Shown one piece after another: positions 4,610 through 5,545 of a DNA stretch of 64,000 nucleotides (position 1 is the stretch's first letter; each line of letters opens with the position of its first letter). The stretch lies in NCBI GenBank assembly GCA_003868215.1, contig QWDQ01000075.1, positions 39,345 to 103,344 of the forward strand, written 5' to 3'. Source of the stretch: Pseudophaeomoniella oleicola. Its lineage: Eukaryota > Ascomycota > Eurotiomycetes > Phaeomoniellales > Phaeomoniellaceae. The position numbers were made by a program, and so were the translations under genes. The notes under the pieces were generated by a model, which saw nothing but the letters and a program-made list of their open reading frames with translations, did no database searches and was not told the DNA's origin.

Positions 4610-5347
4610 ATGGCTCCCAAGATCGCTATCGTCTTTTACTCCATGTATGGTCACATCAAGGCCATGGCAGAAGCCGAGAAGAAGGGTATTGAGGCTGCCG
4701 GCGGTTCCGTTGACATCTACCAGTAAGTCTCCCACGTACATGAGCAGCGAGATATATCACTTTGTGAATGTTCCTTACATTACCCCTCCGTCGATTGTTC
4801 CCTTTACCCGTTGGTGTTGCTATGGCTGGTGCTGATCAACTATCTTCACAGAGTCGCTGAGACCCTTCCCAAAGAGGTCCTCGAGAAGATGTACGCCCCA
4901 CCAAAGTCCGAGTACCCCGTCATCACACCCGCCGAACTCACCCAATACGATGGTGTCCTCTTCGGTATCCCAACCAGATACGGCAACTTCCCAGCCCAAC
5001 TGAAGGCCTTCTTCGACGCAGCTGGTCAGGTCTGGGCCAGTGGTGCCTGGTACGGCAAGTTCGTCGGTTGCTTCGTCTCCACTGCCAGTCCCGGTGGTGG
5101 TCAGGAATCCACCTTCATGTCGGCCATGTCCAGTTTCGTCCACCAGGGCATGATGTTCGTGCCACTGGGCTACGCCAAGAGCTTCGGTCAGCTCACCAAC
5201 CTCAGCGAGGTCCACGGTGGATCTCCGTGGGGTGCTGGTACATTTGCCGGTGGTGATGGCAGCCGCCAGCCATCTGCTTTGGAACTCGAGGTTGCCGAAA
5301 TCCAGGGCAAGAGTTTCTACGAGCATGTCGCCAAGTACCACTCTTGA
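4610..5347 (+). CDS. Flavodoxin-like NAD(P)H:quinone oxidoreductase (WrbA/Pst2/Ycp4 family)
   Basis: Two exons, 4610-4722 and 4852-5347, joined across a 129-nt intron (GTAAGT...CACAG) that splits a Gln codon to read IYQVAETLP. The 202-residue product has the WrbA-type flavodoxin fold: FMN phosphate loop YSMYGH near residue 10, then the conserved [22 protein letters not shown] segment and the [10 protein letters not shown] flavin loop. Family members perform two-electron reduction of quinones and protect against oxidative stress, usually as tetramers; yeast Pst2, Rfs1 and Ycp4 are relatives. The upstream TATA box and short pyrimidine-rich leader suit a well-expressed gene. The unusual point is the stop codon at 5345-5347, described in the next entry: an open tail continues in the same frame. 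Confidence 0.93.
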
Positions 5348-5545
5348 CTACACTCGGGCCCCGAGGAAAATAAAGAACAGGAACCGGTCACCGCAGCGGC
5401 CAATGGGAATACTGCGACAGAAGCCACGCCTGGCGTGAAGGAGTCGAAAGATACAAAGAAGGAAACTAGCTCTGCTCCTGCTGCTACAAGTGATGAACCC
5501 AGTAGCGGGCCTTGCGGATTGCCGAAGAAATGTGTCATTTTATAG
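5345..5545 (+). other. Candidate stop-codon readthrough extension ending in a CaaX box
   Basis: The quinone reductase stop is TGA followed directly by CTA, the hexanucleotide known to promote translational readthrough in fungi and animals. The same frame then stays open for 65 sense codons to a TAG at 5543-5545. The tail is rich in Ala, Thr, Glu, Lys and Ser, as expected of a flexible linker, and ends PCGLPKKCVIL: a CaaX prenylation box (CVIL; Leu at the end favours geranylgeranylation) preceded by a Lys pair and a further Cys that could be palmitoylated. An alternative is an in-frame 54-nt intron (donor GTCGCC at 5327, acceptor ACAG ending 5380) that would remove the stop; its donor is poor. 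Either route would yield a soluble and a membrane-anchored isoform. Confidence 0.65.

Follow-up and report, generated by a model that had tools for sequence, protein, structure and literature searches.

We identified a gene in the fungus Pseudophaeomoniella oleicola whose single mRNA probably yields both a free and a membrane-bound form of a quinone reductase. The gene lies in a 64,000-nucleotide stretch of contig QWDQ01000075.1 (hereafter the window) and encodes a WrbA/Pst2-type NAD(P)H:quinone oxidoreductase. Behind its stop codon, the same reading frame continues into a tail. The evidence that this tail is coding, conserved and closed by a CaaX box is strong and, at the level of sequence, settles the point. 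Readthrough of the stop codon is the likely route by which this fungus reaches it.

The enzyme gene has two exons, and its product has 202 residues and ends in ...AKYHS directly before TGA CTA (Table 1). The initial annotation had recognised a WrbA/Pst2-like protein, and this identity is borne out by two NCBIfam models and a structure. The protein scores 212.1 bits against the model for WrbA/NAD(P)H:quinone oxidoreductase type IV, the Pst2 family (TIGR01755, cut-off 132.5), and 221 bits against NF002999 (cut-off 141). The yeast Pst2 structure 5mp4 aligns with residues 3-200 (E 2.5e-84). Among the best candidates scored in the fungus's own 26.1 Mb assembly, the enzyme gene is present as a single copy, and no paralogue was found at E 0.001. 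The tail DNA likewise has one match in that assembly.

The end of the gene has the coordinates and frame first described for it: the enzyme's frame stays open beyond the TGA for 65 codons, runs to GPCGLPKKCVIL and closes with a TAG. The UGA is followed by CUA, the arrangement that defines UGA CU(A) readthrough genes. The CaaX box CVIL stands in the frame of the enzyme, as in Ycp4-type proteins, here behind a TGA. The tail contains no Met codon and thus cannot start its own translation, which rules out a separate small gene.

Table 1. Features of the enzyme gene, its stop codon and its tail (positions are those of the window).
Feature	Position	Strand	Evidence
Exon 1, WrbA/Pst2-type NAD(P)H:quinone oxidoreductase	4610..4722	+	Translation MAPKIAIV...; NCBIfam TIGR01755 and NF002999 above cut-off
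Intron 1, GTAAGT...CACAG	4723..4851	+	Excision gives a 202-aa protein
Exon 2, closing with the regular TGA stop (5345-5347)	4852..5347	+	Short homologues stop at about the corresponding place
Rival intron, in-frame GTCGCC...AACAG pair of 54 nt that would remove the stop	5327..5380	+	Sequence
TGA CTA (TGA 5345-5347, CTA 5348-5350), described efficient readthrough context	5345..5350	+	Sequence; context measured in U. maydis (available text of PMC4207609)
In-frame extension of 65 codons, without Met, linker-like	5348..5542	+	Own frame +3.6, other five frames -5.2 to -11.0
GPCGLPKKCVIL, with second conserved Cys (5513-5515) and CaaX box CVIL (5531-5542)	5507..5542	+	GPCGLP in homologue tails; profile E 1.2e-9
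Second stop, TAG	5543..5545	+	Sequence

Conservation of the tail was assessed in 180 homologous proteins pooled from two best-first lists. One list held the best 120 of 7186 matches to the enzyme with its tail, and the other held the best 120 of 3924 matches to 16 aligned long forms, among them that of the window. Most of the pooled proteins (145/180) are shorter than 330 aa. Among the matches listed, 59 of the 180 proteins have CGLP within their last 60 residues, a fraction that is not a prevalence because it comes from the best 120 of each list, ranked by similarity. All but one of these 59 listed proteins (58/59) terminate in C-x-x-x, and their tails read GPCGLP in 58 cases and GSCGLP in one. 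The final residue of the 58 listed termini is Leu (26), Gln (21), Met (7), Val (2) or Ser (2). The sources of the tailed proteins include Penicillium, Aspergillus, Paecilomyces, Sclerotinia, Botrytis, Rhynchosporium, Lachnellula, Colletotrichum, Fusarium, Podospora, Pyrenophora, Alternaria, Phyllosticta and Wetmoreana, genera that span five classes of Pezizomycotina.

A profile built from the 59 homologue tails ranks the tail in the window first (E 1.2e-9) among 12,883 ORF segments from 295 kb of the fungus's own genome; the runner-up segment has an E value of 0.074. The profile match and the near-constant GPCGLP give the gene the hallmark of known readthrough genes, an in-frame extension that carries a conserved peptide. 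The linker between the enzyme and the CGLP motif varies in sequence and length across homologues, as expected for a tether. This variability is probably also why a protein search with the tail alone returned 22 candidates, all with E values above 10. The initial annotation had named a lack of conservation of the frame or CaaX box in close relatives as one observation that would refute its proposal; at the protein level, both are conserved in the homologues. DNA of fungal homologues was also sought in viral, genome and plasmid sequence collections, where searches of the viral and genome contigs gave pattern matches but no relative and one search of the genome contigs had no match at all. The plasmid collection contributed 279 matching records, each below 60% identity, and one further pattern match fell in viral contigs (L004, 60% GC).

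We placed the tail against ORF statistics from 68 coding-like ORFs of 150 codons or more, this gene being counted in each figure. Extensions of 65 codons or more follow six of the 68, so the length of the tail alone is unremarkable. Two of the 68 end in TGA CT, and one, the gene described here, has a Cys at position -4 of its extension. The codon score of the tail is 3.6 in its own frame and -5.2 to -11.0 in the other five. Such scores do not settle the matter by themselves, because 28% of 12,885 open windows of 66 codons reach a value as high as that of the tail. GC3 is 0.48 in the tail, compared with 0.69 in the main frame; a lower value is expected for a part of the protein that is made less often. 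One stretch of the assembly (L021, G000:C5:1-10000) has 29% GC, compared with about 47-51% in other stretches, and is perhaps mitochondrial. It was excluded from the splice and codon statistics.

Related fungi also seem to make this protein with two ends. Tailless proteins of at most 206 aa number 72 among the matches listed. In Paecilomyces lecythidis, the short form (P0166, 203 aa) and the long form (P0123, 245 aa) are identical at 203 of 203 residues, and the long form continues without a residue at the place where a recoded stop would stand. The corresponding pair in P. variotii (P0162 and P0108) shares 202 of 203 residues. Since each of these two species has both forms on record, the two ends seem not to be peculiar to the genome studied here. 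Among Penicillium proteins, a short form from P. steckii (P0174) ends in VNHQ-stop, and a long form from P. citrinum (P0044) reads VNH-H-TESK. A CA codon split by a GTRA donor would account for both ends, giving Gln-stop if the intron is kept and His if it is removed. Of two long forms from Fusarium, one (P0146, VAN-SQAK) has a residue that the other (P0160, VAN-QAK) lacks, the kind of difference that neighbouring acceptors would produce. These protein ends suggest that Penicillium, Fusarium and Paecilomyces reach the tail by alternative splicing. Readthrough is thus not the rule for the whole group.

In three pairs (P0044/P0174, P0037/P0150 and P0146/P0160), the stop of the short form may coincide with the 5' splice site of a retained intron or fall within it, which would make a compact isoform switch. 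Gene models deposited for near relatives get past the stop in differing ways (Penicillium P0041, P0121 and P0131; Aspergillus P0125 and P0157; Sclerotinia P0132 and P0100), a pattern that gene-finding software may produce where a coding tail follows a stop codon. Models that bridge the stop at different places (P0125, P0157, P0132, P0141, P0156 and P0159) are likely annotation artefacts, and some bridging models omit the conserved final stretch of the enzyme (FYETVAK-like).

The 59th CGLP-tailed protein, P0152, is a JGI protein of 281 aa from a contig of 1349 bases. It reads ...NKVNFA-W-LDGSSSE...GPCGLPSKCAVL-W-DINDF..., with Trp at two places: where short homologues stop, and directly after the CaaX box. 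Among the matches listed, 22 of the 72 short homologues end in FA. Trp at both places is what a gene caller using TGA as a Trp codon would give. P0152 is therefore best explained by a gene in which a TGA and a Leu codon would precede the tail, all in one frame. On visual comparison, the end of P0152 is most like those of Halenospora and Lachnellula, a likeness that points to a second lineage.

The tail could in principle be plain 3' untranslated sequence in which an open frame and a final CaaX-like tetrapeptide arose by chance. In favour of this reading, extensions of 65 codons or more follow six of the 68 ORFs, this gene's own among them. The profile test separates the tail from the next segment of its own genome (E 1.2e-9 vs 0.074), and with the conservation of the tail this leads us to reject chance as having practically no probability. 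The original judgement that a CaaX-ended, in-frame tail is hard to explain by chance is upheld by the same test. It is also very improbable that the tail is a relic, formerly reached by splicing or through a sense codon and now silent behind the stop. A silent tail could have the reduced GC3 seen here, but the frame, the CaaX box and the GPCGLP motif are all intact. The deposition of both ends for P. lecythidis further argues against a relic, since the pair is not peculiar to this fungus.

Alternative splicing offers another route to an expressed tail: removal of a short intron carrying the stop would give the long isoform, and its retention would give the short form. The 54-nt alternative intron pointed out in the initial annotation is present as an in-frame GT-AG pair, and an in-frame GC-AG pair starts at position 5307. 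Splicing is also the apparent route in Penicillium (Gln-stop/His), Fusarium (one-residue shift) and Paecilomyces (direct join), and it is documented for fungal PGK and GAPDH in the available text of PMC4973966. A self-trained splice model picks the 54-nt intron, with its donor scoring above 65% and its acceptor above 58% of the training set. We give this model little weight because its 26 training junctions include the site itself, which makes the result circular here, and because it ranks the GTAAGT donor of intron 1 lowest. A canonical donor for a spliced long form is missing from exon 2: none of its 40 GTs belongs to a GTRNGT. We compared donor classes by counting them upstream of branch/acceptor-like sites and in a downstream control over 285 kb of the fungus's own genome. 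In this coarse measure, GTRNGT has the largest excess (63 vs 24 in the control), and the YNHT class has a smaller one (148 vs 120). The two GTs nearest the stop, GTCGCC and GTACCA, lack a G at +5 and belong to classes that are flat (377 vs 386 and 340 vs 348, respectively); the hexamers themselves are too few to weigh (8 vs 8 and 6 vs 2). No CTRAC was found upstream of the 15 AGs examined from 5349 to 5520, an absence that says little because intron 1 also lacks a CTRAC near its acceptor. Splicing would moreover leave both the TGA CTA and the stop-free zero-frame tail unexplained, and we consider it an unlikely route in this fungus. Readthrough better explains the combination of a UGA CUA context, an exon 2 without a canonical donor and a tail without Met, and UGA CUA alone sufficed for readthrough in Ustilago maydis (available text of PMC4207609). 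The readthrough proposed in the initial annotation thus gains inferential support in this fungus from the stop context, the missing donor and P0152; some relatives appear to splice instead.

In the mechanism that we propose, most ribosomes would terminate at the UGA, giving the soluble enzyme of 202 aa. A smaller share would read through the leaky UGA CUA by means of a near-cognate tRNA and extend the protein by 66 residues, 65 of them behind the recoded position, as a flexible linker that ends in GPCGLPKKCVIL. The CVIL box would then be prenylated. CaaX boxes with Leu at the X position direct geranylgeranylation, which is thus the probable modification here. The conserved upstream Cys of GPCGLP may be acylated as well. 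In this way, a small pool of the enzyme would become membrane-bound, probably at the plasma membrane, and could reduce ubiquinone there. The CaaX motif, together with the yeast and Candida Ycp4 proteins, makes a lipid anchor and a membrane role a reasonable inference by analogy.

Ycp4 of Candida albicans and Saccharomyces cerevisiae likewise belongs to the WrbA/Pst2 family. In C. albicans, it carries a C-terminal extension of about 90 aa that closes with a CAAX box, and GFP-Ycp4 gives a plasma membrane signal; the four C. albicans family members are found at the plasma membrane, where they are proposed to reduce ubiquinone (available text of PMC4556627). Yeast Ycp4 is listed among Erf2 acyltransferase substrates (available text of PMC5364179), and position 243 of the yeast protein appears, asterisk-marked, as a UniProt annotation in the accessible part of a table of palmitoylation sites (PMC3929663). 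In these yeasts, Ycp4 is a separate gene beside Pst2, whereas one gene carries both ends here. The accessible portions of the literature examined make no mention of a recoded stop in Ycp4.

The stop context is shared with UGA CU(A) readthrough in fungi and animals, including Ustilago Tpi1, Rpe1 and Art1 and human LDHB and MDH1. These systems also resemble the present one, as proposed here, in dual localisation from one mRNA and in a mosaic of readthrough and splicing over fungi. Peroxisomal PGK and GAPDH are described as arising by readthrough or by splicing, in a mosaic across fungi, and yeast PDE2 provides a case in which readthrough gives a functional C-terminal extension that leads to degradation (available text of PMC4973966). 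The cargo proposed here differs from that of the UGA CU(A) enzymes in being a CaaX box on a 65-residue tail rather than a PTS1. PDE2 resembles the proposed system as a fungal enzyme with a functional readthrough extension, but its outcome is degradation, and a lipid signal is not mentioned. A prenylation box behind a leaky stop has a counterpart in Drosophila Syx17, a syntaxin. That protein is from an animal and is no enzyme, and its farnesyltransferase signal in the readthrough extension is a prediction (available text of PMC3840789). Human readthrough extensions have also been screened for prenylation sites (available text of PMC4359377).

Targeting signals added by readthrough are already known. 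The initial annotation knew of no prenylation signal delivered in this way in fungi, and this agrees with the accessible portions of the open-access literature searched, which contain no such case; the Syx17 prediction exists for Drosophila. The same portions of that literature contain no report of a GPCGLP-type tail in filamentous fungi. If the proposed mechanism is correct, programmed readthrough in fungi would extend from peroxisomal import to lipid anchoring. It would allow a filamentous fungus with a single Pst2 to gain a membrane form for which yeasts use a second gene. It would also add a further mosaic of readthrough and splicing resembling that of PGK and GAPDH, with other cargo. The analysis meanwhile reveals a conserved protein end that deposited gene models omit or bridge in various ways.

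A broader proposal is tentative, and we hold it with more doubt than confidence: one old gene in Pezizomycotina may do the work of the yeast Pst2/Ycp4 pair, with its GPCGLPxKCaaX tail reached by readthrough or splicing according to lineage and its use raised by stress. The leaky UGA CU lineages would be the fungus studied here and a Helotiales-like one. The splicing lineages would be Penicillium, Fusarium and Paecilomyces, where the stop would coincide with the 5' splice site or lie in it, and the shared tail would perhaps be doubly lipidated. Oxidation of ribosomal proteins has been connected with the fidelity of termination (available text of PMC4207609), so oxidative stress itself could shift more of this antioxidant ubiquinone reductase into its membrane-bound form.

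A different extension is seen at the other end of some homologues. Among the matches listed, 13 of the 180 proteins carry roughly 40 or more additional N-terminal residues, starting with MCFP[GS]K, ahead of the usual start (P0054, P0061, P0065, P0073, P0077, P0078, P0080, P0083, P0086, P0095, P0099, P0102 and P0107), and those with named sources are from basidiomycetes. This extension is a possible N-terminal acylation anchor, by which the enzyme may be tied to a membrane from its other end.
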